NCBI RefSeq assembly: GCF_014904695.1
Contig: NZ_JACXXN010000007.1
Coordinates: forward strand, 124,001 to 188,000
DNA length: 64,000 nt
Direction: 5' to 3'
From: Nostoc sp. MG11
Lineage (GTDB): Bacteria; Cyanobacteriota; Cyanobacteriia; Cyanobacteriales; Nostocaceae
The notes under the pieces are model-generated. The model saw only the letters and a program-made list of their open reading frames with translations. It was not told where the DNA came from and searched no databases. Every line of letters begins with the position of its first letter. Position 1 is the first letter of the stretch. A program made the translations under genes and the position numbers. Positions 12,751-29,305 of the stretch are shown here, piece after piece.

Positions 12751-13501
12751 ATTCCTTTGAGGGTAGTAACGTCAAACAGGGTAGTGTTAACTTAAGCCAA
12801 AATCCTTTTAAAATCTCGTTTCTCGGTTCTACCTGGAAATGCTCTATAAAATTTTGATATGAGCAAACCTATAGCCAGTGTTTTTGCTTAAACTATTCTC
12901 TGTCCAAATTAAAAAAGTAGTTTAAGTTTCTCAGTCTTAATACTGTTAAGTACTATGATAAAATTGCATTATAAGTATGGTAAATTTGTATTTATTATAA
13001 TTAATATCGCTTCATTAATAGTTTAGATTACTTACTTTTTTTCTCTTTCTTTGATTTAAATAATTTTTTAGAGTAGTTTCGATATATAACAGCAAATACC
13101 TAAAAGCCTTTTCATATATAAGTTTTAATAGTTTTTAAATCATAATCAGTTACTAAAATTGGTATATATTTTTCACAAATAAAATTTATTTTTCTACTTC
13201 AACATACAAATTCACTCCTAGAGAAGTTACTTATTTATACGGAAGACTTTTTTTGCAGCGAAAGTTACATTCTTATTCACATAGGCAATTAGGCAGTACG
13301 TAAGAATAAGTTGCCCATATTCATAGCTACAAGCCTTGATAAACAAGGACTAGCGCGAATTAAATAGCAATTTATTTCTGCACTCGCCTCAATATGGGTT
13401 TTGAGGGAAGTCAATAATTTAACTCCTCAAATATGCATTCTCAAAACACTAAAGTTTTGGGCTGATACAACTGGTAATTCTTTAGGGAAGTGCCAAACTT
13501 T
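12751..13501. other. AT-rich region upstream of the DUF11 surface cluster
   Basis: About 750 bases with no gene, largely A/T, rising in complexity after 13250. It should contain the cluster promoter. A ribosome site AGGGAAG lies at 13484-13490. No operator dyad stood out. Confidence 0.5.
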
Positions 13502-16108
13502 ATGCTGTCTAAAAATCTAGGATACAAGTCCAATAAATTAATTAATTCTATGGTGAAACGCAATAAATTTGTTAACAATCAACACTACCAATTTTTAGTA
13601 ATAACAGCATTATTAACTGGTAGCTTTTTTCAATTTATTGCTCCTGTACTAGCTGACGGGACTACTGCGGGTCAATCCATCAGCAACACTGCGACTGCAA
13701 CTTATGAAGATCCCAACAATCCAGGAACAATCATAAATGCGACTTCTAACACGGTAACTGTGACTGTGGCAGAGGTTGCTGGTGTTACCGTAACGGCTGC
13801 TGGTGTCACAGATGCCACTTCTAGCTCTACCAATACGACAGTTCAAGTTGGCGATTTACTAATCTATACCTACACTCTGACGAACGTTGGTAATGACCCA
13901 ACCAAATTTCATATTCCTAATCAAGCCACAACAACTGGGCCAGGTATCGTTTCTGGCACATTACCAAATGGTGGTACGCTTAATAACCTGCAATACAGCA
14001 CCGACGGCGGCACAACTTGGATAAACGTATCTCCAGGTGGTGTAGATACACCCTCGGTTCCGTCTGGTGGTACTGTGTTGGTGCGTGTGCCAATTACTGT
14101 ACAGAATGGTGCTAACCCCAACGATGTAATTACTGTTACCCTTGGTAACACCCCTGGTGATGCTCAAAACCAACTGCGTAATCCTGATGGTGGTGACGTG
14201 TTCACCGTAGATAACCCTGATGGTAGTCCTGGTGAAGTCGCTGGGACACCAGTCAACGGTACACGAGAAGCTAGTGCTACCGATCAAATCCAGGTAGGTT
14301 CAACGCTCAAGACCTACGCCTTAGCAACAATTCTCAAGACTCGTAGTGCTTACAACAATGGTGGCACGACCGCAATTACAGATGACAAGCTGACCTACGA
14401 TCTAAATTTGCGGGTTGAGAACAATGATCCAACAGGCCAAGGAATTAACCCCGCAGCTCTAACTGGTACAAGCATTAACGTTGATGGTACTCCTGGTACA
14501 TACATCTTAATTTCTGATGCGATTCCCACAGATACACAGCTTGCAGCTATACCGACTGCGCCTCTTGGTTGGCAAGCAGTCTACACCACAAATCCAGTCA
14601 CAACTAATGCCAATACAGCTAATTGGAAAACTTTCCCCTTGCAAGGTGCTGACACACTAGCAGGTATAACCCGCGTTGGTTTTATCAATAGACCAGCTAC
14701 TATTACTTCCATCGCTCCTGGTACAACAGTAAATGGCTTCTCAGTTCAGTTAGCTATTAAATCAACTGCAACTTCACCGTTGACTGTCGCCAACATTGCC
14801 CAATTATTTGGTCAAACTCCTACCAATAATTTCCCAGTATACGACGAATCAGGCGACCAAAATCCCAGCAACTACGATGGGCCTCCAGGCAACATGACAC
14901 CTCGTGCGGGTACAGATACTCCTGTTGCTGTTGGTCAGCCTGGTGATGGTGTTCCCGATATTCTACCACCTAATAGTGTTGATGACGGTTTTATTAACAA
15001 CCCAACAACTCCAGAAACAGGAGTTGACATCGGCAATAACAATACTGGTGATGGTACAACAGGTGGTGAAGCGAACATCTTTACACTACAGACGCCTGTG
15101 GCTTCAGCGATTCTCAACGGGCCGCAGGGTGCGCCAGATGCTACCGGGCCATCGGGTCAAACTAACGATGATTTCACTAACAAATCTTCCCTCGTTCCTA
15201 CTGCTACGGCACCTGGTACTAAACTTGACCCGCAATCTGTTGGCTTCACAAACACAGTTAAAAATAATGGTACTAGCCCCGGTAACATCACGATCGCACC
15301 AACAGTACCAGTACCAGCGAATCCTAAAGATTTGCCGAATGGGACTAAAGTGACAGTTACTTATAATAGTCAGTCTGCTGTCTATACCTACAATCAAGCA
15401 ACAGGAACCTTTACAATCACTGGTACACCAATTGTGATTTCTAATGTTGCTGCTGGTGCAAGCATCAACTATGGTGTGGAAGTTGATTTACCAAGTAACA
15501 CATCCCTGTCAACTGATACTATCCCCGACTACACAGGCGATCAAGAATTTGGCTTCCCAGTTTATATGGTTAGCTCCATTGATACCAACAACGACAACAC
15601 ACCTGATAGTCAAAATATCACTATTGATCGCGTATACACTGGCTTCCTAAAACTGTTAAAAGTATCACGAGTCTTACAAGGAACTGGGCCTGTAGTCCAG
15701 GGAAATGATGGCACATTCAGTACTGCTCTGAAAAAACCTGCACCAGGAAACATTATTGAGTATCAAATTCAGTACACAAATATCTCTAATGCTCAAGCTG
15801 GAACAGGTAATGTGATTTTGAATGCTGACAAGTTGGTGATTACTGAAGATGGTACGCAATCTCCCAATAATTGGGCGCTAGATAACGATAGCAATACTCA
15901 AATTGATACTAGTAATATTGTTGGCTCAGCTCAAGATTCTGGATCTGCAACCATCCAATTCTACAGTGGTAATCCAGCTAGCACCTCTGGCATTGACCAG
16001 ACTGGAACCACTGTAAACACTGATGTCACCAAATATGTGAATACCGTTACTGGCGCGATCACACCGGGTATTCAAAGAACATTTACCTTCAGACGCAAGG
16101 TGAACTAG
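13502..16108 (+). CDS. Exported DUF11-type repeat surface protein A
   Basis: This is an 868-residue secreted protein. A long basic start is followed by the hydrophobic segment FLVITALLTGSFFQFIAPVLA, a plausible signal peptide ending at ALA/DG. The rest is Thr/Asn/Gly/Pro-rich beta sequence with repeated DUF11-type modules (VQVGDLLIYTYTLTNVGNDP; PGNIIEYQIQYTNISNAQ). These are immunoglobulin-like domains found in bacterial surface proteins. There is no LPXTG motif or membrane anchor, as expected of a Gram-negative cell. It ends in an aromatic/basic strand, FTFRRKVN. ATG 13502 is 13 bases from AGGGA; a GTG at 13490 and an ATG at 13550 are alternatives. It is the first gene of a five-member surface cluster. 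Confidence 0.88.
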   Translation: MLSKNLGYKSNKLINSMVKRNKFVNNQHYQFLVITALLTGSFFQFIAPVLADGTTAGQSISNTATATYEDPNNPGTIINATSNTVTVTVAEVAGVTVTAAGVTDATSSSTNTTVQVGDLLIYTYTLTNVGNDPTKFHIPNQATTTGPGIVSGTLPNGGTLNNLQYSTDGGTTWINVSPGGVDTPSVPSGGTVLVRVPITVQNGANPNDVITVTLGNTPGDAQNQLRNPDGGDVFTVDNPDGSPGEVAGTPVNGTREASATDQIQVGSTLKTYALATILKTRSAYNNGGTTAITDDKLTYDLNLRVENNDPTGQGINPAALTGTSINVDGTPGTYILISDAIPTDTQLAAIPTAPLGWQAVYTTNPVTTNANTANWKTFPLQGADTLAGITRVGFINRPATITSIAPGTTVNGFSVQLAIKSTATSPLTVANIAQLFGQTPTNNFPVYDESGDQNPSNYDGPPGNMTPRAGTDTPVAVGQPGDGVPDILPPNSVDDGFINNPTTPETGVDIGNNNTGDGTTGGEANIFTLQTPVASAILNGPQGAPDATGPSGQTNDDFTNKSSLVPTATAPGTKLDPQSVGFTNTVKNNGTSPGNITIAPTVPVPANPKDLPNGTKVTVTYNSQSAVYTYNQATGTFTITGTPIVISNVAAGASINYGVEVDLPSNTSLSTDTIPDYTGDQEFGFPVYMVSSIDTNNDNTPDSQNITIDRVYTGFLKLLKVSRVLQGTGPVVQGNDGTFSTALKKPAPGNIIEYQIQYTNISNAQAGTGNVILNADKLVITEDGTQSPNNWALDNDSNTQIDTSNIVGSAQDSGSATIQFYSGNPASTSGIDQTGTTVNTDVTKYVNTVTGAITPGIQRTFTFRRKVN

Positions 16109-16184
16109 ATAGTTTCACCCTTCACAAAAGCAGAGAAAGATTAATCAGCAATCAATATTTGGGAAATTTTTTGAGGCTATTGAT

Positions 16185-16748
16185 ATGAACTGTGTTTCTA
16201 TTGCAGGTATAGGAGCGTTCGCGCTCATCACAACAGTACCTTTTGTCAGTCAAATACCGGGAGTGGCTTCTTTCTGGCAATCTGGAAGTGCTGTTGCTCA
16301 GAATATCAAAACTCAAGGGCAAATACAATTGCGCTTAGAAGCAGAAAAGCAAGTGGTGTCAAAGGATCAGCAGGGTAAGCAAAGCCAGAAATGGGAACCG
16401 TTGAAAGGTCAGGTTATGGTGCGACCAGGAGACATATTGAGATATACCTTGATTGGTGAAAATAAGAGCGATCGCCAACTTAAGAATTTAACTCTCAATC
16501 AACCTATTCCTCAAGGAATGCTATATGTGCTGAAGTCTGCCAATATCACCAACAATGCCCAAATTACCTACAGCATTGATGGCGGACGCAGTTTTGTAGA
16601 AAATCCCACTATTAAAGTCACTCTCCCCAACGGCAAAGTGGAAACTAAACCAGCACCAGCGAGTATTTACACCCACATCCGATTGCTAGTTCCATCAGTG
16701 GCGGCGAAGACGATAGTCAAAGCAACTTATCAAACCCAGGTGCGTTGA
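16185..16748 (+). CDS. Small exported DUF11-like protein B
   Basis: This 187-residue protein starts with a hydrophobic segment (GIGAFALITTVPFVSQIPGVASF) and a signal-peptidase-like AVAQ site near residue 38. The mature part is one beta-rich domain with the DUF11 signature VRPGDILRYTLIGENKSDRQ and PIPQGMLYV, the pattern seen in its larger neighbours. It lies 76 bases downstream of gene A on the same strand and probably shares its transcript. As a single-domain member it could be a periplasmic adaptor or cap subunit for the larger proteins, which is inference only. Confidence 0.85.
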   Translation: MNCVSIAGIGAFALITTVPFVSQIPGVASFWQSGSAVAQNIKTQGQIQLRLEAEKQVVSKDQQGKQSQKWEPLKGQVMVRPGDILRYTLIGENKSDRQLKNLTLNQPIPQGMLYVLKSANITNNAQITYSIDGGRSFVENPTIKVTLPNGKVETKPAPASIYTHIRLLVPSVAAKTIVKATYQTQVR

Positions 16749-16818
16749 TTTGCAATTAGCTAACAATAATCAGCGTTGTTCAGAGTAAAAATCATTTCCC
16801 TAATTTTAGGATTTTCAC

Positions 16819-16878
16819 CTTAGTGTCTTTGTGCCTTAGTGGTTAGAAAATTGATTTTTTAACCACTAAGACACTAAG
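16819..16878. repeat. Imperfect inverted repeat (CTTAGTGTCTT type)
   Basis: The left arm 16819-16845 and right arm 16860-16878 are complementary except for an extra eight-base TTTGTGCC-like insertion in the left arm. A T-run (TTTTTT) lies in the loop. The sequence CTTAGTGTCTTTGTGCCTTAG resembles a dispersed element common in cyanobacterial intergenic DNA. It separates genes B and C of the surface cluster. Confidence 0.75.
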
Positions 16879-17018
16879 AGAAATAGATTTTGAAAGAGCC
16901 AGTGGAACTACTTGCAGCAGTTAGCTTGTGGGTAAATGCTATTTAAAAGTTATAGATTTCAGAGATAGCAAATCCATTAATTAACAGAAGATGTGGCGAC
17001 CCAGAGGAGATATGTTAA

Positions 17019-18566
17019 GTGATTCTTCCTAACAGCAAAAAGCAAATTACTTCTAGTAAGCGCTGGTGGCGACGGTTAACAGCAACTATTCTTTTAGGAA
17101 GTGTTTTGCATACCACACCGATACCAGCGATCGCGCAACATAATAACAATCAGGTTGGTCTTCAGTCTGTAATCAACTTAATAAATCAAGCTACTTATAC
17201 TTATACAGATTCTACCAGTAATTATAATTTTCAAGGAATTTCTAGTCAGATTAATCTGAGTCCTAATCCATTAATTGACCCAATAGGGCGGATTTTAGGT
17301 TGTGCAGGCGCACTTATACCTGACTATAAAGGTTTTTCAGTCAGCTTATACGAACCGAATCTTAGTGATCCAACAGGGACAGAATTAGGAAAATTGACTT
17401 CTTTGACTCGGACAGAGTTACCTGATATTGCTAACAACAATATTCCTGGTGGAAAAGCACCGAACACTGAGAATAGTAACCCTTACTTCATTACAAATAA
17501 TCCCGCAGGTATCTATAATTTTCTACTTGATCCGAGTAAAGGTCAGACAGATGCAGGAAAAACCTACATTTTTGTAGTTAATCCACCACAAAATTCAATT
17601 TACAAGCAGCGACGGCTCAAGATTCAAATTGTTGGAAGTACTGTCAGTGTTAATAACGGTGTAGTTCGATATATTGCTACATCTCTAGACGGTCAACCAA
17701 TTAGTCTTACAGGCGACACCAAGATAGAAGGCACAGTTGTCTTTGTTCCGAATGCAGAAGTAGTGGGACTGGACTTATTAGCATTTGAACTTACCACAAA
17801 TATGTGTCAAGCAAATCAGGTGCAGGTGATCAAAACAGGCGATCGCGCCACTGCTGAACCTGGAGATACGGTGATTTATCGCCTGTCAGTGAAAAATCTG
17901 GCTGATAGTGATTTGAATAATGTAGTTGTCACTGACAATCTGCCTTTAGGATTTAACTTCTCGCCTAAATCTGTGCGAGGTGAACTCGATGGTAAACCAG
18001 TTACCATAACCTCAGAACGTAACGGCAATACTGTATTATTTCGCACACAGGCAATAATTCCTACAGAGAAAGTCCTAAATATTGCCTATGCTGCTCAACT
18101 AACGAGTGATTCTCTACGAGGTAATGGTCGCAACAGTGCGATCGTCAATGCACAACGTGCTGATAACGGTTTTAGTACCAAGGATGGCCCAGTAACACAT
18201 CAGTTGAAAATTCGACCGGGGATTGTCTCAGATTGTGGCACGATCATCGGCCGTGTATTTGTTGATAAAAACTTTGACGGTGAACAGCAACCTGGTGAAC
18301 CAGGGATACCCAATGCAGTGATTTTTATGGAGGATGGCAACCGTATCACCACAGATCCTAACGGTTTGTTCTCCTTAGCCAATGTCTTGCCTGGAAGCCA
18401 CACGGGTGTATTAGACCTCAGTAGTCTCCCCGGTTACACCCTAGCGCCCAACCGGAAATTTCGGGAACGCAATAGCCAATCTCGCTTGGTGCGCTTAGAG
18501 CCTGGGGGTTTGGTACGCATGAACTTCGCTGTCACTCCCACTTTCCAGGAGCAAGTCAATAAATGA
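17019..18566 (+). CDS. Exported DUF11 + SdrD B-like protein C
   Basis: This is a 515-residue secreted protein. The basic start with WWRR is followed by the signal core LTATILLGSVLHTTPIPAIA. Then comes a Cys-containing N-terminal domain of unknown type (about 45-265), a DUF11 domain (about 275-395; DRATAEPGDTVIYRLSVKN), and a C-terminal SdrD B-like domain (about 400-505; GRVFVDKNFDGEQQPGEPGI, a calcium-binding-type loop, then DPNGLFSLANVLPG). The start is GTG 17019 with AGAGGAGA about ten bases upstream. A six-codon ATG frame begins at 17012 with the same ribosome site. Its stop codon overlaps the start of gene D (ATGA), so C and D are translationally coupled. That coupling suggests C and D act together, C outside and D as its membrane anchor. 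Confidence 0.88.
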   Translation: MILPNSKKQITSSKRWWRRLTATILLGSVLHTTPIPAIAQHNNNQVGLQSVINLINQATYTYTDSTSNYNFQGISSQINLSPNPLIDPIGRILGCAGALIPDYKGFSVSLYEPNLSDPTGTELGKLTSLTRTELPDIANNNIPGGKAPNTENSNPYFITNNPAGIYNFLLDPSKGQTDAGKTYIFVVNPPQNSIYKQRRLKIQIVGSTVSVNNGVVRYIATSLDGQPISLTGDTKIEGTVVFVPNAEVVGLDLLAFELTTNMCQANQVQVIKTGDRATAEPGDTVIYRLSVKNLADSDLNNVVVTDNLPLGFNFSPKSVRGELDGKPVTITSERNGNTVLFRTQAIIPTEKVLNIAYAAQLTSDSLRGNGRNSAIVNAQRADNGFSTKDGPVTHQLKIRPGIVSDCGTIIGRVFVDKNFDGEQQPGEPGIPNAVIFMEDGNRITTDPNGLFSLANVLPGSHTGVLDLSSLPGYTLAPNRKFRERNSQSRLVRLEPGGLVRMNFAVTPTFQEQVNK

Positions 18567-21500
18567 AACCGAGACTTCACTTTATGGAAAGCGGCGAGAG
18601 AACCTTGTTTGTGGCGTTGTCGTCAAGCCGCCTCGCTGCTTGGGGGATACGGGATATGGGATATGGAAAAATTACCAATGACCAAAAACCACGTCTCTTA
18701 TGGACATGGTTTTTTATAGGAGCTATCAGCCTCGTTTTGTATCCCACCATAGTCAAAGCTGAAGCCATTGAGGATATGCAAATACAAACTCAAACTAGCG
18801 AAAACCTCTTTTCCACAACATCTTTACCAGTTGTTACTAGTATCAATAATCAAGAAAATTACAAAAGATACAGCATATCCACTGAAACTACAACCCAAAA
18901 TTTTAAGCCAACTGGTACTGAAATACAACCATTTCAACCAGCAAATAATACCCAATTACCCAAAGGTTTAAGGGAAATTGCAGCAATAGCCAAAAACACA
19001 AGAGAAATACAACCATTTCAACCAGCAACTAATACCCAATTACCCAAAGGCTTAAAGAAAATTGCAGTAGTAGCTGAAGACAAAGACAAAATTCCCCCCT
19101 CCCCAAACTCAACAACCGTAAAAATACTGACGCCCACGGTTGACAGTGTTGTAGATGTCGCAGCTACCACTGTGATTGTGCAATTTCCCGTTGGTAGTCA
19201 GGTGGAATTGCGAGTGAATGGCGAGTTGGTAGACCCTTCTTTAGTGGGACGGACACAGAGCGATGTCAGCACTAACTTAGTAACGCAGACATGGTACGGT
19301 GTCTCGTTAAAAGAAGGTGATAACACCATCTCTGCACAAGTATTGGGAACGACAGAACTTCCTGTGACAGTGCGGATAGCGGTACGAGGAGCGCCACAGC
19401 AACTAACTATAGAAACGGTTGAATCTCGGATACCAGCGGATGGACGTTCCACGGCTACAATTCGGGGTCAACTTGTGGATGCAAATGGTAATCGCTCTAA
19501 CCGGGATGCTGTTGTCACCCTGATACCTTCGGCTGGGGATTTGGTTGGAACTGACTACAAACCCGATCAACCTGGATTTCAGGTGGAGGCGAAAGCAGGA
19601 CAATTCACGGCTACTTTGCGATCGCATCTCAAAGCGCAAATTGTCCGAATTCGAGCAATAGCTAATAATTTAGAAGCCTTCACCCAACTGCAATTTGAAA
19701 CAGCATTGCGTCCCAGCTTGGTGACAGGGGTAGTGGATTTGCGTTTGGGTGCTAGAGGGACAAATTATTATGGAAGTTTCCGTGATTTCTTGCCTCCTGA
19801 CAAAGACAATAGAACGCAATTGGATTTTCACTCAGCAGTATTTGCGACGGGTGCGATCGGTGAGTGGCTGTTTACGGGTGCATACAACAGTTCTCGAAGT
19901 CTCAACGAAGATTGCAACTGTGATAATCGCCTATTTAGAACCTACCAATTTAGCGAGCAAAACTATCCTGTCTACGGCGATAGCTCCAAAGTTGATGCGA
20001 TCGCCCCTTCAATTGATAGCGTATTTCTGCGTTTCGAGCGTTCAACTCGTATCCCCGGATCTGCTCCTGATTACGCCATGTGGGGTGACTACAATACTGA
20101 AGAATTTGCTCGTCTATCACAGCAATTTACTTCTATCACTCGTCAGCTTCACGGCTTTAAAGCTAACTACAACCTAGGAAACCTACAAATTACAGGTTTT
20201 TATGGCAACCACTTAGAAGGGTTTCAACGAGATACCATTGCTCCCGATGGCACTAGTGGTTATTATTTCCTCTCTCGCAGACTACTACAACCAGGTAGCG
20301 AAAATGTCTTTATCGAGTTAGAAGAACTCAATCGTCCTGGGACTGTACTAGAACGCAAACAACTAAATCGAGGGCCAGACTATGAGATAGATTACGATCG
20401 CGGTACTTTATTATTCCGCGAACCTCTGCTTCGCACCGATATTGATCAGACTGGACAAGTATTAGTACGTCGGCTTGTTGTTAGCTATCAATATGACAGC
20501 CAAGACTCTGATAGCAATATCTATGCTGGTCGCCTGCAATATAACCTCTCTCGTAAACTCAACTCTGAAAGTTGGTTAGGAGCAACTTATATTCAAGAAA
20601 ATCAGGGGGTGCGTGACTTTCAACTCTATGGCGCAGATGCACTCATCGCTTTAGGTGACAAGGGTAAGTTAATCGCAGAATATGCCCACTCTACTAATGA
20701 TTCTGAATTCATGGGAAAGGTTAGCGGTGATGCCTACCGCTTGGAAGCTGAGGGACAGATTGCTAATGGTATTCAAGGTCGGGCCTATTATCGCTTTGCT
20801 GATACAGGCTTTGCTAATAATGCCACTATCAGCTTTGTCCCAGGACAAACTCGCTATGGAGCGCAGGTAACAGGAAAATTGACCTCAAGCACTAACGTCA
20901 GAGTGCAATATGACCACGAAGATAATTTCGGTATTGCACCCCAACCGCTAGATACTTTTGAGGAACTGTTTGCACCACGTTCTGAGGCGATACCCGGTAG
21001 TAAAGTTGATAATTCGTTAACAACAATTACTGCCGGCATTCAACAACGCTTGGGTAGCGCTACCGTTGATGTGGATTGGATTCATCGTCATCGGGAAGAC
21101 CGCATCTCTAGCAATGCTCTAAATAGTAATTCTGATCAGTTGCGTTCACGCCTTTCAGTTCCCATCGTCAAGAACCTGACTTTCCAAGCGCAAAATGAAC
21201 TCACCTTATCTTCTGATACGGATAGTGTTTATCCAGACCGTACCGTCTTGGGGTTGAATTGGGCGGTGATTCCTGGTGTCAATGTTAGTCTTGCTCAACA
21301 GTTTTACACTCGTGGTCAATTTTTGGGTAACTCCATCACCAGTTTAAGTGTCAACGGTGAACACAAACTTGGGCCCGATACCACTTTGACTGGTCGTTAT
21401 TCTATTTTGGGTGGTGCTAACGAAATGACTACCCAAGGGGCAATTGGTCTAAATAACCGTTGGTCTATTGCTCCTGGGTTGCGGTTGAACTTAGCTTATG

Positions 21501-22387
21501 AACACGTATTTGGCAGCTTCTTCGGACGGACTGCGACGGGTCAGCAATTTGCTCAACCTTACGCCTTTGGTCAAGCAGCATCGGCGATCGCATTTAATGG
21601 AGGCGATAGCTACAGCGTCGGACTAGAATACAGTGATAATCCGCAGTTTCAGGCCAGCGCTCGCTACGAGCATCGCACCTCGTCTGGTGGTTCCAACACT
21701 GTTATTTCTGCTGCTGCTACGGGTAAGATTTCTCCGGCTCTCACAGCCTTAATCCGCTATCAACAAGCCAATTCTTCTAATCAAAAGCTGACGGGACTAC
21801 TGGGAGATACGGTTAACTTAAAGCTGGGTTTAGCCTACCGCGACCCCAACAACGATCAGTTCAATGCTTTGTTGCGGTATGAATATCGTCAAAATCCCGC
21901 TGTGATTCCTGACACCATTTTTTTAGGCACTGGTACGGGTTCTGAAGACCATACCTTTGCTTTAGAAGCTATCTATGCACCCAATTGGCAATGGGAATTT
22001 TATGGCAAGTATGCCTTGCGTAACAGCACATCTTACATAGCCAGTGATTTAGCTGGCACTAGTATGGTAAATCTAGCGCAAATCCGAGCTACATATCGTT
22101 TGGGATACAGCATGGATTTAGTGGGTGAAGCTCGCTGGATTGGTCAAGATAACTACACTGAAACAGGCTTTGTTATAGAAACAGGCTACTATCTTACTCC
22201 TAACTTGCGTCTTTCTACTGGATATGTTTTTGGTCAAGTCGATGACCGAGATTTTTCCGGGACACGTTCCGCAGGTGGCTTCTATTTAGGTTTAACGGTT
22301 AAACTCAACGAATTATTTGATGGTTTTGGACAGCAAAAAATTACACCACCCCAGCAACAAGAACCGAAGAGAACAGAATCAATTTAA
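18563..22387 (+). CDS. Giant outer-membrane beta-barrel surface protein D
   Basis: This is a 1274-residue protein. After an unusual roughly 50-residue start comes a signal-peptide-like segment (WTWFFIGAISLVLYPTIVKAEA). A Gln/Pro/Asn-rich spacer follows with a 28-residue sequence repeated twice. Next are two beta-sandwich domains (GSQVELRVNGELVDP; the Ig-like IPADGRSTATIRGQLVDANG). From about residue 400 to the end there are alternating amphipathic strands typical of an outer-membrane barrel, ending in the aromatic strand GFYLGLTVKL before a short polar tail. The stop of gene C overlaps its ATG. ATG 18656 (residue 32) could be the native start, since the preceding codons include heptad-repeat DNA. 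I infer a secretion or anchoring barrel for the DUF11 proteins; a porin-like adhesin is the alternative. Confidence 0.85.
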   Translation: MKPRLHFMESGERTLFVALSSSRLAAWGIRDMGYGKITNDQKPRLLWTWFFIGAISLVLYPTIVKAEAIEDMQIQTQTSENLFSTTSLPVVTSINNQENYKRYSISTETTTQNFKPTGTEIQPFQPANNTQLPKGLREIAAIAKNTREIQPFQPATNTQLPKGLKKIAVVAEDKDKIPPSPNSTTVKILTPTVDSVVDVAATTVIVQFPVGSQVELRVNGELVDPSLVGRTQSDVSTNLVTQTWYGVSLKEGDNTISAQVLGTTELPVTVRIAVRGAPQQLTIETVESRIPADGRSTATIRGQLVDANGNRSNRDAVVTLIPSAGDLVGTDYKPDQPGFQVEAKAGQFTATLRSHLKAQIVRIRAIANNLEAFTQLQFETALRPSLVTGVVDLRLGARGTNYYGSFRDFLPPDKDNRTQLDFHSAVFATGAIGEWLFTGAYNSSRSLNEDCNCDNRLFRTYQFSEQNYPVYGDSSKVDAIAPSIDSVFLRFERSTRIPGSAPDYAMWGDYNTEEFARLSQQFTSITRQLHGFKANYNLGNLQITGFYGNHLEGFQRDTIAPDGTSGYYFLSRRLLQPGSENVFIELEELNRPGTVLERKQLNRGPDYEIDYDRGTLLFREPLLRTDIDQTGQVLVRRLVVSYQYDSQDSDSNIYAGRLQYNLSRKLNSESWLGATYIQENQGVRDFQLYGADALIALGDKGKLIAEYAHSTNDSEFMGKVSGDAYRLEAEGQIANGIQGRAYYRFADTGFANNATISFVPGQTRYGAQVTGKLTSSTNVRVQYDHEDNFGIAPQPLDTFEELFAPRSEAIPGSKVDNSLTTITAGIQQRLGSATVDVDWIHRHREDRISSNALNSNSDQLRSRLSVPIVKNLTFQAQNELTLSSDTDSVYPDRTVLGLNWAVIPGVNVSLAQQFYTRGQFLGNSITSLSVNGEHKLGPDTTLTGRYSILGGANEMTTQGAIGLNNRWSIAPGLRLNLAYEHVFGSFFGRTATGQQFAQPYAFGQAASAIAFNGGDSYSVGLEYSDNPQFQASARYEHRTSSGGSNTVISAAATGKISPALTALIRYQQANSSNQKLTGLLGDTVNLKLGLAYRDPNNDQFNALLRYEYRQNPAVIPDTIFLGTGTGSEDHTFALEAIYAPNWQWEFYGKYALRNSTSYIASDLAGTSMVNLAQIRATYRLGYSMDLVGEARWIGQDNYTETGFVIETGYYLTPNLRLSTGYVFGQVDDRDFSGTRSAGGFYLGLTVKLNELFDGFGQQKITPPQQQEPKRTESI
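18644..18666. repeat. In-frame heptad repeat (GGGATAC/GGGATAT) in the 5' end of gene D
   Basis: GGGATAC, GGGATAT, GGGATAT and GG occur in tandem. They encode part of the sequence WGIRDMGYG ahead of the hydrophobic signal segment. The flanking DNA is more GC-rich than the gene, which suggests an inserted repeat. Confidence 0.7.
18920..19087 (+). repeat. Two tandem 84-bp in-frame units in gene D
   Basis: The units start at 18920 and 19004 and encode EIQPFQPANNTQLPKGL... and EIQPFQPATNTQLPKGL.... They are nearly identical over the first two thirds and diverge towards the end. This is a spacer duplication between the signal peptide and the first beta domain. Confidence 0.9.
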
Positions 22388-22393
22388 ACGTTG

Positions 22394-22424
22394 TGTAGAG
22401 ACGTTGCATTGCAACGTCTCTACA
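22394..22424. repeat. 31-bp palindrome, copy 1 (left of RAYT)
   Basis: TGTAGAGACGTTGCA, one central T, then the exact complement TGCAACGTCTCTACA. It starts seven bases after the stop of gene D. The same unit recurs at 22733-22763 and 23150-23180. Confidence 0.97.
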
Positions 22425-23036
22425 CGGCGCAAATTTGGAATTGTCATTATAACCAAACCAAAATTTAAGGGTAAATATCGCGTCGAGTCAACTCGGTTAC
22501 AAAATCGGAATTATGCTGCCAACGGTTCGTATTTCCTGACAATTTGTACGAGCGATTGCTTCCATTTATTTGGGAATATTAATGAGGGTGAGATGCGGTT
22601 ATCTGCAATTGGAGAAATAGCCCAACAATTCTGGTCAGATATTCCCAACCATTTTGATTACATCTACATCGATATCTATGTAATCATGCCCAATCACGTA
22701 CACGGCATTATTGTGATCGACCGCCCCCAAAATGTAGAGACGTTGCAATGCAACGTCTCTACAAAACGTGATGTATTATGCAACATTACACAACAACAAT
22801 TCATGTCTAACATATCTCCTAAAGCGGGTTCATTGGGCGCGATCGCGCGATCATACAAATCTGCCGTTACCCGTTGGTGTAGGAAAAATGGTTTTGAAGA
22901 TTTTGGTTGGCAAAACCGATTTTATGAACACATTATTCGTGCTGACGGTTCTTTAGACCGCATTCGAGAATATATCATTAATAATCCCACCAAATGGGAC
23001 AAAGACAAAAATAATACTGCAAATTTATGGATGTGA
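22404..23036 (+). CDS. REP-associated tyrosine transposase (RAYT, Y1/HUH family)
   Basis: This is an IS200-like Y1 transposase of the RAYT group, single-domain HUH nucleases that act on REP-type palindromes. It shows the opening YRVESTRLQNRNYAANGSYFLTICT, the metal-binding HUH motif in VIMPNHVHGIIVI, and the tyrosine region WQNRFYEHIIR. The C-terminal IREYIINNPTKW is also family-typical. The start is unclear: no ATG precedes the conserved domain except one at 22317 inside gene D, so I give TTG 22404, which lies in the left palindrome; an ATT or ATA just before the domain is another option. A third palindrome copy lies inside the gene in frame (22733-22763). All catalytic motifs remain. No second ORF or IS ends suggest a normal insertion sequence. 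Confidence 0.85.
   Translation: MHCNVSTRRKFGIVIITKPKFKGKYRVESTRLQNRNYAANGSYFLTICTSDCFHLFGNINEGEMRLSAIGEIAQQFWSDIPNHFDYIYIDIYVIMPNHVHGIIVIDRPQNVETLQCNVSTKRDVLCNITQQQFMSNISPKAGSLGAIARSYKSAVTRWCRKNGFEDFGWQNRFYEHIIRADGSLDRIREYIINNPTKWDKDKNNTANLWM
22733..22763. repeat. 31-bp palindrome, copy 2 (inside the RAYT gene)
   Basis: The same 15-bp arms as copy 1 around a central A. It adds the residues VETLQCNVST to the transposase without breaking the frame, between the HUH and tyrosine motifs. Confidence 0.97.
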
Positions 23037-23052
23037 TATTTATACTTCCATC

Positions 23053-23073
23053 GTAGAGACGTCGCAATACGAC
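23053..23073. repeat. Degenerate palindrome copy (right of RAYT)
   Basis: GTAGAGACGTCGCAATACGAC resembles the left arm and part of the right arm of the 31-bp palindrome, with several changes and a lost outer right arm. It lies 17 bases after the RAYT stop. Confidence 0.65.
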
Positions 23074-23149
23074 ATTTTTTTTGATTGCGTATTGTTATTA
23101 GAATTATGCAATGAAATTTTTATTTAATACTAATTTAAAAAAATCCCAT

Positions 23150-23180
23150 TGTAGAGACGTTGCATTGCAACGTCTCTACA
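23150..23180. repeat. 31-bp palindrome, copy 3 (right of RAYT)
   Basis: Identical in sequence and orientation to copy 1 (central T). Copies 1 and 3 enclose the RAYT gene within about 790 bp between surface genes D and E. Confidence 0.97.
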
Positions 23181-23327
23181 GGGAATGTGAATGTGAATGG
23201 TAGATTTTCTTACGCCTTGGGTAATCTAAAAGCTGAAGATACTTTTTATCGTCAGTACAGCATCATGGAACCTAACGCAAATGTCCTAATTTACTCTTTT
23301 TCTTAACCCGGAAATAATAGTTGCCAA

Positions 23328-26132
23328 ATGCAAAAACTGTTTATGAACATAAAAATGAAATGTCACTTGCTAAGCAGCGACCAAAGGCGATTATTGGGTA
23401 ACTTAACCTTTTTTCTATGTATCCTGGGACAGGGAATACAGCCTGGCTGGGCTGAGGGCAGCAAAGAATTAGTCTCCGATGGTGGTTACAGACCTTATTT
23501 GGAATGGTCAAACTCGACTATTGCCGGTATTACCAGGAAACCGAAATTTCAAGTCTACGTTCAACAAGGAGAAACTGTTAATCTTGGCTCTAGTGTTGAA
23601 AGTAGTTTCTCTAACCCACAAGATATTGTTTATACAAGTCCCTTTGGTGGTCAAAATGGTTTTTGTAATGTTAATGCCACTACTGGTGTGGGTTTCATTA
23701 ACACTGTTATCAAAGAAACAGCAGGCCCTTTACCAAATACAGGTGGGTACGACCCTTGCAAGTTTACTGCTACAGAAACGGGTATTTATACAGTCGAGTT
23801 TCGTTCGCCCGACCCTGCTGCTACTGCTCAACCTCCTCCAGTAAGAGTAACTGATCCTTTCCCTATAGATGGCAACCAAAATTATGCGGTAGCTGCTTGG
23901 GATATCACAGTTAGAAATAGTAACGGTACTACTCAAAAGGGGCGGGTATTTACTAACTTCATTGCTATGAGTATGGGAGCAAATGCTGGTTTAGGTGCTC
24001 CCAGTGACCTAGGACTTAACTCCAAGCTTTATATTCAAACTAAAGATGGCTATCGGTACGAAACCGATATGAATGGAGTTGATCCCTTTGGCTTTGTCTT
24101 TTTTGCTAATAGCCGTGGGTATATTGACCAAACAAATGGCAGCACTGTTTACCATTCTGCTGGTGGTGCTACTGATAATACTCTCCAATTTGCTGGCAAT
24201 GTTAGAGTCCAACGTCCCGATGTTGCCGATACAGCAACGGACATAACCCACTTAGTTTTTTTTAACCGACCCGACTTTCTGACTCTAAATACTTTAAGTA
24301 TTTCCTTAACACCAATTGTTCCAGCAGTACCGACTTCTTTCCAATTTACTGGAGGGACTGGGGGGAGTGGGAACCAAACTTACATTGGGGTGGGGGGCTA
24401 TTTTAGTTTTAGTTCTACTACAGCCGGAAGTTATCAGCTCATCATTGACACCAACAACGACGGCATTTTTGACCCCAGTGCTGACAGAGTGCTACAAAAT
24501 CCGGTGTCTGCCGGCTCTAATGTGGTGTTTTGGGATGGCAAGGATGCTAATGGAGTTAACCTGCAACCCTTGGCGAATAATGCGCCCTACAATGCCCAAA
24601 TTACCAGCCGGGTGGGGGAATATCACTTTCCTATGTTGGATGCTGAGAATAATCCTTCGGGCTTCAAAATTACAATGGAAAACCCTCCTGCGGCATTTCC
24701 CAACATTTTGGATCAAAATGGACAAAACATCGGCTCAACCACAATTTATTACAACGACAGCAATTACACAACAGCTAATGGCACACTAATTAATTTGGGT
24801 AGCACAGGAGTTACTAACCCCCGTAATGCCGCCAGAGGAATAAATAGTACCCTAGGCGAGCATGAGTTTAATAGCGGCTATGGTGACTTTAAGGGGATAG
24901 ATACTTGGACATTCTTTTCTAGTCAAGCAGTAACTACTCCCCTAGTGATTACTACAAACAACCAGGCAAATGTTAGAGGAACTAAATCTGTTCGCTTCTT
25001 AACAGACAATGATGGTAGCGCTACAGTTACCGTAGGTGATATTGTTCAGTATCAAATAACTTACTCCAACTTAAGTCCAGGCAACACTGATGCTATCAAC
25101 TTTGTCATTAATGATTCTTTGCCTGCACAATTAACCTTTGTAAGTGCGGCAATTACTGCTAGTACTCCGGAGAATAATATTACACGCAATTCCAGTTACA
25201 ACGGCTCTGGTGCTGTTACTAATTCTGGTACTTTGCGTGTAGGCGACACGATCACGATCGCAATCACTGCCACAATTAATAATGCCAATGGTGGTAATGC
25301 AATCAGTAACCAGGCAATTGCTAACTTTAACACACCCGATAATCCTTCTGGAACAGTTGGCACAGCGCTCACTGACGCAGACTCTGCTGGCGCTACTACT
25401 AACCCGCCTACCCTCGGCAATTTCTTTTCACAAACTGCTAACGATAATGTGAATACTGGTAACAATCCCAACGACACCGCAGACGATGATCCGACTTTGT
25501 TCACAGCATCAAATGTTGTTACTGCTACTCCCAAGCTTTTATTAGTTAAACGCATCACCCGCATTAATAGCCAGGACTTAAATGATATTGTGGATGGTCG
25601 CAGCGATGTTGCTGTTAGTGCTACCAACTATGTACCAGCACCCCATGCTGCTGACGATAATGATAGTAAATGGCCTGCTAGCTACTTACGAGGATTGATT
25701 AATGCTGGCACTGTCAAGCCAGGGGATGAGTTAGAATACACCATTTACTTCCTCTCCAAGGGCCCTAGCAACTCTACTAATGTTAAATTCTGTGATTTAG
25801 TTCCTGTTAATACTGCTTTTATTCCTACTGCTTTTAATGGTAAAACTCCCAATGATGGTGGTTTAACAACAGCAAATCAAGGTATTGCCTTTGCTATTAG
25901 TTCTAATACGCCTACGGTTTACTTTACCAACATAGAAGACTCAGGCGATCGCGGACGTTTTTATTTTGCTAACGATCCAGCTACACCGTCATATTGCGGT
26001 ATTAATACTAATGGGGCTGTGGTGGTGAATATTACCCGCAGTCCAGATTTACCCAATTTACCCGCAGCATCTCAATCTGGTACGCCAACTAACTCTTATG
26101 GCTTTATTCGCTTCCGCGCCAAGGTGAAATAG
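23328..26132 (+). CDS. Exported DUF11-type surface protein E
   Basis: This is a 934-residue secreted protein. The start MQKLFMNIKMK is followed by hydrophobic NLTFFLCILGQGIQPGWA and an AE cleavage-like site. The N-terminal half (about 45-540) is an unusual Gly/Asn/Thr-rich region with scattered cysteines and a segment resembling a FlgD/Ig-type fold (LIIDTNNDGIFDPSADRVLQ). The second half contains DUF11-type modules (ATVTVGDIVQYQITYSNLSPGN; VKPGDELEYTIYFLSKGPSN). It ends with YGFIRFRAKVK, similar to the end of gene A (FTFRRKVN). It lies 940 bp from gene D, separated by the RAYT unit. It is nearly in contact (2 bp) with the convergent moaD. Confidence 0.87.
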   Translation: MQKLFMNIKMKCHLLSSDQRRLLGNLTFFLCILGQGIQPGWAEGSKELVSDGGYRPYLEWSNSTIAGITRKPKFQVYVQQGETVNLGSSVESSFSNPQDIVYTSPFGGQNGFCNVNATTGVGFINTVIKETAGPLPNTGGYDPCKFTATETGIYTVEFRSPDPAATAQPPPVRVTDPFPIDGNQNYAVAAWDITVRNSNGTTQKGRVFTNFIAMSMGANAGLGAPSDLGLNSKLYIQTKDGYRYETDMNGVDPFGFVFFANSRGYIDQTNGSTVYHSAGGATDNTLQFAGNVRVQRPDVADTATDITHLVFFNRPDFLTLNTLSISLTPIVPAVPTSFQFTGGTGGSGNQTYIGVGGYFSFSSTTAGSYQLIIDTNNDGIFDPSADRVLQNPVSAGSNVVFWDGKDANGVNLQPLANNAPYNAQITSRVGEYHFPMLDAENNPSGFKITMENPPAAFPNILDQNGQNIGSTTIYYNDSNYTTANGTLINLGSTGVTNPRNAARGINSTLGEHEFNSGYGDFKGIDTWTFFSSQAVTTPLVITTNNQANVRGTKSVRFLTDNDGSATVTVGDIVQYQITYSNLSPGNTDAINFVINDSLPAQLTFVSAAITASTPENNITRNSSYNGSGAVTNSGTLRVGDTITIAITATINNANGGNAISNQAIANFNTPDNPSGTVGTALTDADSAGATTNPPTLGNFFSQTANDNVNTGNNPNDTADDDPTLFTASNVVTATPKLLLVKRITRINSQDLNDIVDGRSDVAVSATNYVPAPHAADDNDSKWPASYLRGLINAGTVKPGDELEYTIYFLSKGPSNSTNVKFCDLVPVNTAFIPTAFNGKTPNDGGLTTANQGIAFAISSNTPTVYFTNIEDSGDRGRFYFANDPATPSYCGINTNGAVVVNITRSPDLPNLPAASQSGTPTNSYGFIRFRAKVK

Positions 26133-26905: not shown

Positions 26906-29305
26906 ATGAGCTATTGCCTAAATCCCAATTGTACAAACCCTGCTGACCCAATGAATGACAACGGCAAAGTTTTCTGCCGTAATTGTGGGGCAAATCTATT
27001 AATAGAAAATCGATATCGAGTAATTAAACTTTTGAGTATTGGAGGCTTCGCTAGAACTTTTGAGGTAGAAGATAACGGGATTAAAAAAGTCCTTAAAGTA
27101 TTGAGTCTATCTCGGTTTAGTGATTTAGTAAAAAAACACAAAGTCATCAATTTATTTAAGCGAGAAGCTGAGGTATTGAGCCGCTTAAACAATTCAGGAG
27201 TTCCTAAAGTTGATCCAGACGGATATTTTGAATTGAAATTTCCCGATTTTCCAGAGCCATTACACTGCCTAGTAATGGAAAAAATTGAGGGTTTAAATTT
27301 GCAACAATGGTTAGAGAATCACGATCATAAACCTGTAACACCAGAGCAAGCGATCGCCTATTTCAAGCAACTAGTAGAAATTTTAGCTCAAGTTCACGCT
27401 CAAGGATATTTCCACCGCGATATTAAACCGACAAATATCATGCTCAGACCAGATGGACAACTGGTGTTAATTGACTTTGGAGCAGTCAGAGATTTAGCAC
27501 AAACTTATTTACAGCAACATCAAGAGCATACAATAATTGGTACGCCAGGTTACTCACCACCAGAGCAGATGAAAGGTAACGCAGTGGCGCAATCAGATTT
27601 CTTTGCTTTGGGACGAACTTTTGTCCATTTACTAACTGGAAAACCTCCTTTTAACATTGAGGAAGATCACCAAACAGCTAAGTTAATTTGGCGAGATAAA
27701 GTACCATATAACTCAAGTTACTGGATAGATTGGTTAGATAAATTCAGAAGGCGATTACTTTTCGATTTACTCGACGAAATGATGGAGCCATACTGGAAAA
27801 ATCGTCCTGAAAATACGCAGGTAATTTTGCAACGCCTCAATAATCCTATTATTTTACCGCGTATTCCAAGTTGGGTAGCTGGTGCTGCTATTTTATTTGG
27901 ACTGGGATTACCTAGCGGCTACTGGTATTTAAATGGAGTAGATGGGTGTTCAAAAATTTGGCTCAGGAGTTTCCCGCTAGGTGACTATATGAGTTGTGGT
28001 GAAGAAATTCTTTTGCCAAATATTAATACCAAATTACCAGAGAAAGAAAGGGGCGTAAAGGCGATCGCAACAGGTAATTACCAAGAAGCAATTATTTGGT
28101 TAGAGCAAGCATGGCAAAAATATCATGACCCGGAAGCTTTAATTTACCTCAATAATGCCCGCCTCGCAGTTGAAAAAATTAAAACTTACACTATTGCTAT
28201 TGTCGCTCCTATCAGCGATAACAATAACGACAGTATCAACTCAAGTAGACAGATTTTACGTGGTGTTGCTCAAGCACAAGATGAATTTAATCGAGACTAT
28301 AAAACTAAAAAAATTGGCTTAAAAGTCTTAGTTGTTAGTGACAATAATAAAATTGAAGATTCCCAAAAAATAGCAGAAAATTTAGTAAAAAAACGTGATG
28401 TTTTAGCTGTTATAGGTCATTTCAGAAGTGATACAACTATAGAAGCTGTCAAGGTTTATCAAGAACAAAACTTGTTATTAGTTTCTGCCACAGCGACATC
28501 TGAAGATTTGTCAACGGTGTGTAAAACAAATTATCCTAATTGCTTTTTTCGTGTTGTTCCTAGTAATCGTGTCATTGCCAAAACTTTAGCTGACTATCTC
28601 AAACAAGAAAATAAACGTAAAGCAGCGATATTTTTTAATCCTGGTAGTAACTATAGTAAATCTCTACAAGCACAAATGAAAGCTAGATTTTCGGAATTAG
28701 GTGGACAAGTAGTAGCAGAGATACCTTTGTCTGATAATTTAGAATCCACTATCGATCAGGTAAGAGAACAGAAAGCAGATGCTATAGTTTTATTTCCTAC
28801 AAGTGACGGTTTGACCTCAGATCCAGCAGTTCAAGTAATCGAATATGCTAAAAAGTATAAATATTTAATAGTTGGTGGCGATAGTTTGGATAGTAACAAG
28901 CTAATCAAGGCAATAGCAGAAAACGAAGCAGGCTCAGTAGTAGCTATACCTTGGCATTCTAGAAGTATTCTTAAGCAAGAATTACCTAAACAAATTGATA
29001 AATTATGGGGAAAAGCAGAAAACTGGCATACTGCACTATCTTACGATGCAACTCGTGCATTGCTGACAGCTTTGGAAAAAACCCCATCACTCAGTCGTGT
29101 AAATGTGCAGCAGGCAATGGCTGATACTAATTTTAAAGCAACTGGAGTCACAGGAGTGATCTCTTTTAAACCAAATGGCGATCGCCAGCAAGAAAATATT
29201 CATTTAGTTAAAGTTGTGCGGAATAGCAAAACAGGACAAATTGAATTTATACCTTTGCCAATGACTGACTTATTTAAGCAATCTGAGTCCACTGAGAGTA
29301 ACTAA
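26906..29305 (+). CDS. 4-Cys Ser/Thr kinase fused to a type 1 periplasmic-binding-protein domain
   Basis: This is a 799-residue membrane receptor kinase. It opens with a zinc-ribbon-like Cys quartet (C4, C9, C24, C27), a hallmark of a cyanobacterial kinase group. The protein kinase domain (about 37-310) has a modified glycine loop (SIGGFARTFEVED), HRDIKPTN (170-177) and DFG (190-192). A membrane helix (about 323-342) follows, then a short repeat-like helical linker with a TPR-like feel (about 388-420). A complete branched-chain amino acid/ANF-type ligand-binding domain runs from about 427 to the end. I infer cytosolic kinase and periplasmic sensor. The ligand is unknown. The 3' end overlaps the convergent coaT by 36 bp. 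Confidence 0.92.
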   Translation: MSYCLNPNCTNPADPMNDNGKVFCRNCGANLLIENRYRVIKLLSIGGFARTFEVEDNGIKKVLKVLSLSRFSDLVKKHKVINLFKREAEVLSRLNNSGVPKVDPDGYFELKFPDFPEPLHCLVMEKIEGLNLQQWLENHDHKPVTPEQAIAYFKQLVEILAQVHAQGYFHRDIKPTNIMLRPDGQLVLIDFGAVRDLAQTYLQQHQEHTIIGTPGYSPPEQMKGNAVAQSDFFALGRTFVHLLTGKPPFNIEEDHQTAKLIWRDKVPYNSSYWIDWLDKFRRRLLFDLLDEMMEPYWKNRPENTQVILQRLNNPIILPRIPSWVAGAAILFGLGLPSGYWYLNGVDGCSKIWLRSFPLGDYMSCGEEILLPNINTKLPEKERGVKAIATGNYQEAIIWLEQAWQKYHDPEALIYLNNARLAVEKIKTYTIAIVAPISDNNNDSINSSRQILRGVAQAQDEFNRDYKTKKIGLKVLVVSDNNKIEDSQKIAENLVKKRDVLAVIGHFRSDTTIEAVKVYQEQNLLLVSATATSEDLSTVCKTNYPNCFFRVVPSNRVIAKTLADYLKQENKRKAAIFFNPGSNYSKSLQAQMKARFSELGGQVVAEIPLSDNLESTIDQVREQKADAIVLFPTSDGLTSDPAVQVIEYAKKYKYLIVGGDSLDSNKLIKAIAENEAGSVVAIPWHSRSILKQELPKQIDKLWGKAENWHTALSYDATRALLTALEKTPSLSRVNVQQAMADTNFKATGVTGVISFKPNGDRQQENIHLVKVVRNSKTGQIEFIPLPMTDLFKQSESTESN

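Follow-up and report, generated by a model that had tools for sequence, protein, structure and literature searches.

A conserved gene block in Nostoc sp. MG11 as a candidate surface-display system with a predicted large outer-membrane barrel

Five genes, here called A to E, follow one another on the forward strand in a 64,000-nucleotide stretch of the 8.4-Mb genome of Nostoc sp. MG11 (contig NZ_JACXXN010000007.1, positions 124,001 to 188,000; this whole stretch is referred to as the window, and coordinates are those of the window). The block may encode a surface-display system, a reading to which we give an even chance, in which C and D would form a base in the outer membrane and DUF11-type proteins would be its clients, serving as fiber or adhesin subunits. 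C and D appear to make up one functional unit, for which their recurrence as a pair is the strongest evidence, and the division into machine and clients finds support in a C-terminal strand shared by A, B, and E and in the co-occurrence of the C-terminal domain of E with D. An earlier note on this DNA, made from the letters alone, had described five co-directional open reading frames (ORFs), and the ORF listing of the window confirms them at the lengths claimed, with export signals judged by eye.

Gene C (17,019 to 18,566), recognized by its ORF and domain matches, encodes an exported protein of 515 residues, and gene D (18,563 to 22,387) encodes a protein of 1274 residues with N-terminal immunoglobulin (Ig)-like domains and a predicted large outer-membrane barrel. 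The two genes overlap by 4 bp (ATGA), as the earlier note had pointed out. A scan of a collection of species genomes yielded 404 stretches encoding a relative of D, and the best 80 of these 404 were kept as named loci, among which the nearest relatives of D come from Nostoc sp. B(2019) (97%) and Komarekiella (92%). Gene order was counted in the 72 loci that include 6 kb or more of DNA upstream of D; of the eight shorter ones left out, two still show A, B, and C, and six have none of these upstream, with D at the contig end. In 60 of the 72 loci, the overlap of C and D is exactly 4 bp long. Elsewhere, the two are joined in a single polypeptide: plasmid p4 of Acinetobacter haemolyticus encodes a 2008-residue fusion with a C part at residues 616-851 (hhalign E-value 4e-20) and a D part at residues 953-1997 (4e-44), and in Pacificitalea an SdrD_B domain and a D match occur in one protein (Pfam). 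Because of the overlap and these fusions, C and D are probably to be regarded as one functional unit.

The order A-B-C-D is present in all 72 assessable named loci, with median spacings of 113 bp between A and B and 164.5 bp between B and C. The conserved adjacency that the earlier note had named as a check is firm for A to D and looser for E, for which an E-like gene was found in 55 of the 67 loci with enough downstream DNA. A deoxyhypusine-synthase-like gene, which lies upstream of the block in the window, recurs in 3 of the 62 loci that reach 9 kb or more upstream of D (4/80 overall), and since this neighbor is rarely retained, the block stays together as its surroundings change. Of 40 relatives, 22 have a match to D, as do 47 of 386 genomes sampled across the phylum, the source genome being included in both counts. 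In the phylum sample, only the best two candidates for D and up to seven first-look candidates for the E domain were scored per genome, so that copy numbers are lower bounds. Among 20 more distant cyanobacterial loci picked from the phylum search, 12 have A-B-C-D, one has B-A-C-D, four have C-D alone, and three have D alone, two of the latter lying on contigs that end at D.

The block is not confined to cyanobacteria, and relatives are found in Thermus, Deinococcus, and proteobacterial plasmids. With D as the tblastn query, 36 plasmid records were found, of which 12 were opened, one of them cyanobacterial (Synechococcus NIES-970, with A-B-C-D and a DUF11 protein with an E-like end). In all 12 opened loci, a DUF11 and/or SdrD_B protein is either fused to D or encoded by the next large upstream ORF, although the Vibrio record is unannotated and its D partner was judged by motif only. 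Relatives of the block occur in Thermus thermophilus HB8 and HB27, both of them laboratory strains. On plasmid pTT27 of HB8, the order is B (hhalign E-value 6e-18), A (3e-12), C (1e-8), D (2e-10), and a DUF11 protein, with C and D overlapping by 4 bp, and an overlap of this length is also present in Sinorhizobium, Phyllobacterium, Deinococcus, and NIES-970, shortening to 1 bp in Roseovarius. In other loci, the partner and D are separated by gaps of 14 bp (Croceibacterium), 72 bp (Eleftheria), 68 bp (Vibrio), or 301 bp (Devosia, with a 57-residue ORF between). Downstream of the Acinetobacter fusion lie an OmpA gene and a DUF11 gene, and upstream of it a relative of B (hhalign E-value 9e-10); between this relative and the fusion (L190, 3035-5869) lie several short ORFs, some of them DUF11/NEW3, which look like a broken longer gene. 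Several partners of D are giant DUF11/DUF7507 repeat proteins; the giant DUF11 partners of proteobacteria are hard to fit into the periplasm and therefore favor surface exposure of C. OmpA domains also recur on or beside D relatives, and they would fit a cell-wall anchor of the base.

The description of D in the earlier note, Ig-like domains followed by a large barrel, agrees with the structure model, in which the barrel is a prediction of moderate confidence. Two Ig-like domains, one of the Invasin_D3/Big_1 type, are placed at residues 184-372 (19,112 to 19,678) by Pfam and by the model, and the predicted beta-barrel spans residues 382-1246 (19,706 to 22,300), with approximately 36-40 strands counted on the DSSP line and a possible in-barrel insertion at residues 553-627. 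The model, which leaves out residues 1-175, contains almost no helix. In Pfam, D matches, besides the Invasin_D3/Big_1-type domain, a porin family (32 bits, cut-off 27), and the solved barrels nearest to the model (Foldseek) are ushers, SlpA, and porins. SprA structures are also among the Foldseek matches (E-value 2e-7), with a low template modeling score (TM-score). Likeness to the folds of FimD and SlpA may hint at the working mode of D, not at its identity. Two variations on D were seen among its relatives. In three loci, D is split in two ORFs (L045, 9450-13145; L144, 9965-13660; L112, 4047-8108) and is possibly decayed or mis-assembled; in the distant cyanobacterial loci L170, L193, and L175, D is lengthened at its C-terminus by several hundred residues that include an OmpA-type match, which is above the cut-off in L170 and below it in L193 and L175.

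The earlier note had assigned DUF11-type modules to A, B, C, and E. This stands for C and E, which score 45.1 and 53.6 bits against a Pfam cut-off of 24.6, and fails for A, in which no DUF11 match was found in Pfam or NCBIfam at E ≤ 1, with B falling below the cut-offs (Pfam 14.1 vs 24.6 bits; TIGR01451 21.3 vs 24). In C, the DUF11 domain (17,820 to 18,140) contains Lys272, Asp306, and Asn372, each invariant in 74 of 74 orthologues. A Lys-Asp-Asn set is given for the isopeptide bond of DUF11, renamed CLIPPER, in the parts consulted of a 2025 survey (PMC12617251), and the triad of C is as in these isopeptide-forming domains, from which we infer such a bond in C. The SdrD_B-like end of C that the earlier note had noticed (18,231 to 18,539) was recovered as a Pfam match slightly under the cut-off (26.8 vs 29.7). 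It would be the domain that docks with D, and its motif (G[KR]V[FY]xDxNxDG...TTDxxGxF...), written after inspection of the sequences, is present in 11 of the 12 proteins tested, the C of the window among them. The twelfth, from Pacificitalea, lacks the motif and has the Pfam SdrD_B match, and the Vibrio sequence aligns poorly.

Gene E (23,328 to 26,132) encodes an exported protein of 934 residues with a variable N-terminal region followed by DUF11/isopeptide domains that resemble isopeptide pilin and adhesin domains. One is an isopeptide-type (RrgB/CLIPPER-like) domain at residues 547-683 (24,966 to 25,376), and the protein scores above the cut-off for the NCBIfam isopeptide-forming domain TIGR04226 (39.4 vs 30). 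E-like proteins in general combine variable N-terminal regions with a conserved C-terminal domain of approximately 200 residues, found in the window at residues 735-934 (25,530 to 26,129), in which Lys741, Cys822, Asp823, Cys890, and Asn893 are invariant in 63 of 63 sequences, a pattern compatible with an isopeptide bond together with a disulfide. In the model of E, residues 924-933 form a strand at the extreme end of the protein with a predicted local distance difference test (pLDDT) score of ~91.

The end of E (YGFIRFRAKVK-COOH) has counterparts in the other two candidate clients. Gene A (13,490 to 16,108, the earlier note having placed its start at 13,502) encodes an exported protein of 868-872 residues that contains a DUF7925 domain at residues 278-462 (14,321 to 14,875; Pfam E-value 9e-71) and ends in TFTFRRKVN-COOH. 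Gene B (16,185 to 16,748) encodes a small, exported, DUF11-like protein of 187 residues that has the motif YTHxR and ends in YQTQVR-COOH, and its profile aligns with the C-terminal domain of E (hhalign 81%). A motif for this basic C-terminal beta-strand fits the ends of most A (65/74), B (61/74), and E (59/63) proteins, but of only one C protein in 74, of no D protein in 82, and of none of 500 other ORFs; since it was written after the ends had been inspected, the figures are informative relative to C, D, and the background, not in absolute terms. ORFs shorter than 150 residues or running off a contig were left out of these counts, and the background consists of mechanically called ORFs rather than all genes.

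The conserved C-terminal domain of E also follows D across genomes. In the 386 genomes of the phylum sample, domain (E-value ≤ 1e-6) and D are found together in 43, the domain alone in one, D alone in four, and neither in 338. The four genomes scored positive for D without the domain are G310, which has a 50-residue D remnant, G068, G071, and G082; among D-negative genomes, six have a domain match at E ≤ 1e-3 and one, G358, at 1e-6. The match in G358, a genome in which D was not found, is a C-terminal domain of the E type (G358:C48:92115-92519) within a reading frame of 183 residues. Among the 40 relatives, the domain is present at E ≤ 1e-3 in 21 of the 22 with D; in the remaining one, the contig breaks off within E. 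A genome without D (G029) has a marginal match (6.6e-4) that was left out of the 21. Of 62 copies of the domain listed by hand at E ≤ 1e-7, with one second segment of an already counted protein (G156) left out, 55 are no more than 20 kb away from a D. As E and D are usually neighbors and the genomes are related, this co-occurrence shows a shared fate and is not independent proof of function.

The mechanism that we infer from these features would be as follows. D would be a very large outer-membrane barrel and C its fixed partner, with the SdrD_B-like end of C docked in or under D and the isopeptide-locked stalk of C facing outwards. A, B, and E would be the clients, and D/C would probably recognize their flush, basic beta-strand ends. 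The clients would be exported via the C-D base, or held on it, so that a fiber or an adhesive coat would be built, with E carrying the variable, probably adhesive, part. A bolder extension, which we offer tentatively and consider less likely than not, is that the block represents an unnamed outer-membrane export-and-anchoring system spread across Cyanobacteriota, Deinococcota, and Pseudomonadota, in which a barrel of approximately 36-40 strands, on a par with or larger than the largest known of a single chain (36 strands in SprA), would pass isopeptide-locked Ig-type subunits and clients would be recognized by their C-terminal strand.

Several observations weigh against a C-D base that serves A, B, and E. 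Eleven paralogous C'-D' loci (L049-L059) have no recognizable A or B; ten of the eleven have a further ORF after D', which carries beta-helix, Big_6, and OmpA domains in the two cases scanned, and E-like genes come next in most. Confidence in the D model is moderate (pTM, its predicted TM-score, 0.54), D has no sequence match to any known translocon family (Pfam, E ≤ 1), and a Pfam scan found no OmpA domain in the A to E of the window itself. The strand motif, besides its origin after inspection, is similar to the strand that closes a DUF11 domain. It is less frequent in the 20 distant loci, where it occurs in six of the 13 A proteins, seven of the 13 B proteins, and five of the seven E proteins (C 0/17, D 0/21); of the three Thermus ends, the E candidate's has it, and the remaining two look similar by eye. 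The C-terminal part of A aligns unconvincingly with B or E (hhalign 4-6%), and the Thermus protein in the position of E matches E only in a mid-protein DUF11 core. Finally, the joint occurrence of the E domain and D is inflated, since E usually lies in the D locus and the genomes are related; at most two (D) and seven (E domain) candidates were scored per genome.

In an alternative account, which we judge to be less likely but serious, D anchors and displays C alone, in the manner of a two-partner or autotransporter-like adhesin, and A, B, and E belong to the same regulon, leave the cell by another export route, and coat or bind the C fiber. The alpha- and betaproteobacterial plasmid loci, which consist of one large DUF11/SdrD_B protein and D, are what this account would lead one to expect, as are the C'-D' loci and the C-D fusions; against it stand the C-terminal strand that A, B, and E proteins mostly have in common, the close association of the E domain with D, and the fact that Thermus has kept A and B alongside C-D. 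We consider it rather unlikely that D is a peptidoglycan-tethered outer-membrane protein of the SlpA/S-layer kind, with A, B, C, and E forming a regular surface layer or sheath, not fibers, and with no transport via D. SlpA is among the nearest solved barrels, and no SLH match was found in D (Pfam, E ≤ 1).

Nutrient uptake, with D as a barrel of the TonB-dependent kind and the DUF11 proteins capturing substrate, seems very improbable. Plasmid relatives of D are annotated "TonB-dependent receptor", and SdrD_B/carboxypeptidase-regulatory folds are found N-terminally in SusC-type receptors, both of which speak for it. However, D has no plug or TonB-receptor barrel match (Pfam, E ≤ 1), several of its partners are giant repetitive stalk proteins, and, given the short A-B and B-C spacings, A-D could hardly accommodate genes for transporters or enzymes.

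By the sequence tests that were run, the block is outside the usher, TpsB, and TonB-receptor families. From chaperone-usher systems (FimD/PapC), the block differs at several points, as D has no usher match (Pfam, E ≤ 1), no periplasmic pilus-chaperone match was found in the eight window proteins scanned, the barrel of D looks larger, and the subunits of the block seem self-contained, with isopeptide triads. In type V and two-partner secretion, as in the block, the gene for a large exoprotein immediately precedes that of an outer-membrane barrel or is fused to it, but D has no TpsB, POTRA, or autotransporter-barrel match (Pfam, E ≤ 1). Type 9 secretion likewise combines a very large barrel with clients that have variable N-termini and a conserved C-terminal domain; a search of the genome for SprA_N gave no match, but control genomes were equally silent.

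DUF11 fibers and adhesins are already known (PMC12617251; PMC13319060), and we judge the block to be an undescribed variant of bacterial fiber display. Its likeness to CLIPPER/DUF11 surface proteins lies in C and E passing the DUF11 cut-off and in the Lys-Asp-Asn positions, fully conserved in C (74/74) and in the E domain (K741/D823/N893, 63/63). The CLIPPER fibrillar adhesins, in the parts of the survey consulted, differ in being single adhesins with sortase, type 9 secretion system (T9SS)-type, or other sorting domains (PMC12617251; PDB 9IFR); "cyanobacter" is absent from the main text of that survey, and no dedicated barrel partner appeared in those parts. The GhlA grappling-hook filaments of Litorilinea, in the sections of the report consulted, are likewise surface filaments made from DUF11 domains, but GhlA is one protein of 6,596 residues with 49 DUF11 domains, whereas the block encodes several smaller subunits and a predicted outer-membrane barrel (PMC13319060). 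The literature searched yielded no conserved combination of a dedicated large barrel with a DUF11/SdrD_B partner and clients, and it offers little explanation of how Gram-negative DUF11 stalk proteins are delivered to and retained at the surface in organisms lacking sortase or T9SS. The block offers a concrete answer in the form of a dedicated barrel, a fixed docking partner, and a short C-terminal client signature. If correct, this would provide an additional display system for cyanobacteria, in which attachment to surfaces and aggregation are not well accounted for.

An ORF that the earlier note had overlooked sits between D and E (22,317 to 23,036, forward strand) and resembles REP-associated tyrosine transposases (NF047646, 54.1 bits vs a cut-off of 80). 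Since the family match begins at residue 63, translation probably starts inside the ORF. A REP-associated transposase ORF is present downstream of D in 13 of the 67 loci with at least 6 kb downstream (14/80 overall), and 10 of the 14 start no more than ~165 bp from the end of D, so that the spot just after D looks like a preferred transposase site. The ORF is taken as an insertion, not as part of the system. Adjoining the block, a gene at 26,906 to 29,305 encodes a Ser/Thr protein kinase domain followed by a Peripla_BP_6 periplasmic ligand-binding domain in one protein. This kinase-receptor gene overlaps tail-to-tail by 36 bp with a putative metal-ATPase-like gene on the opposite strand at 29,270 to 31,186.
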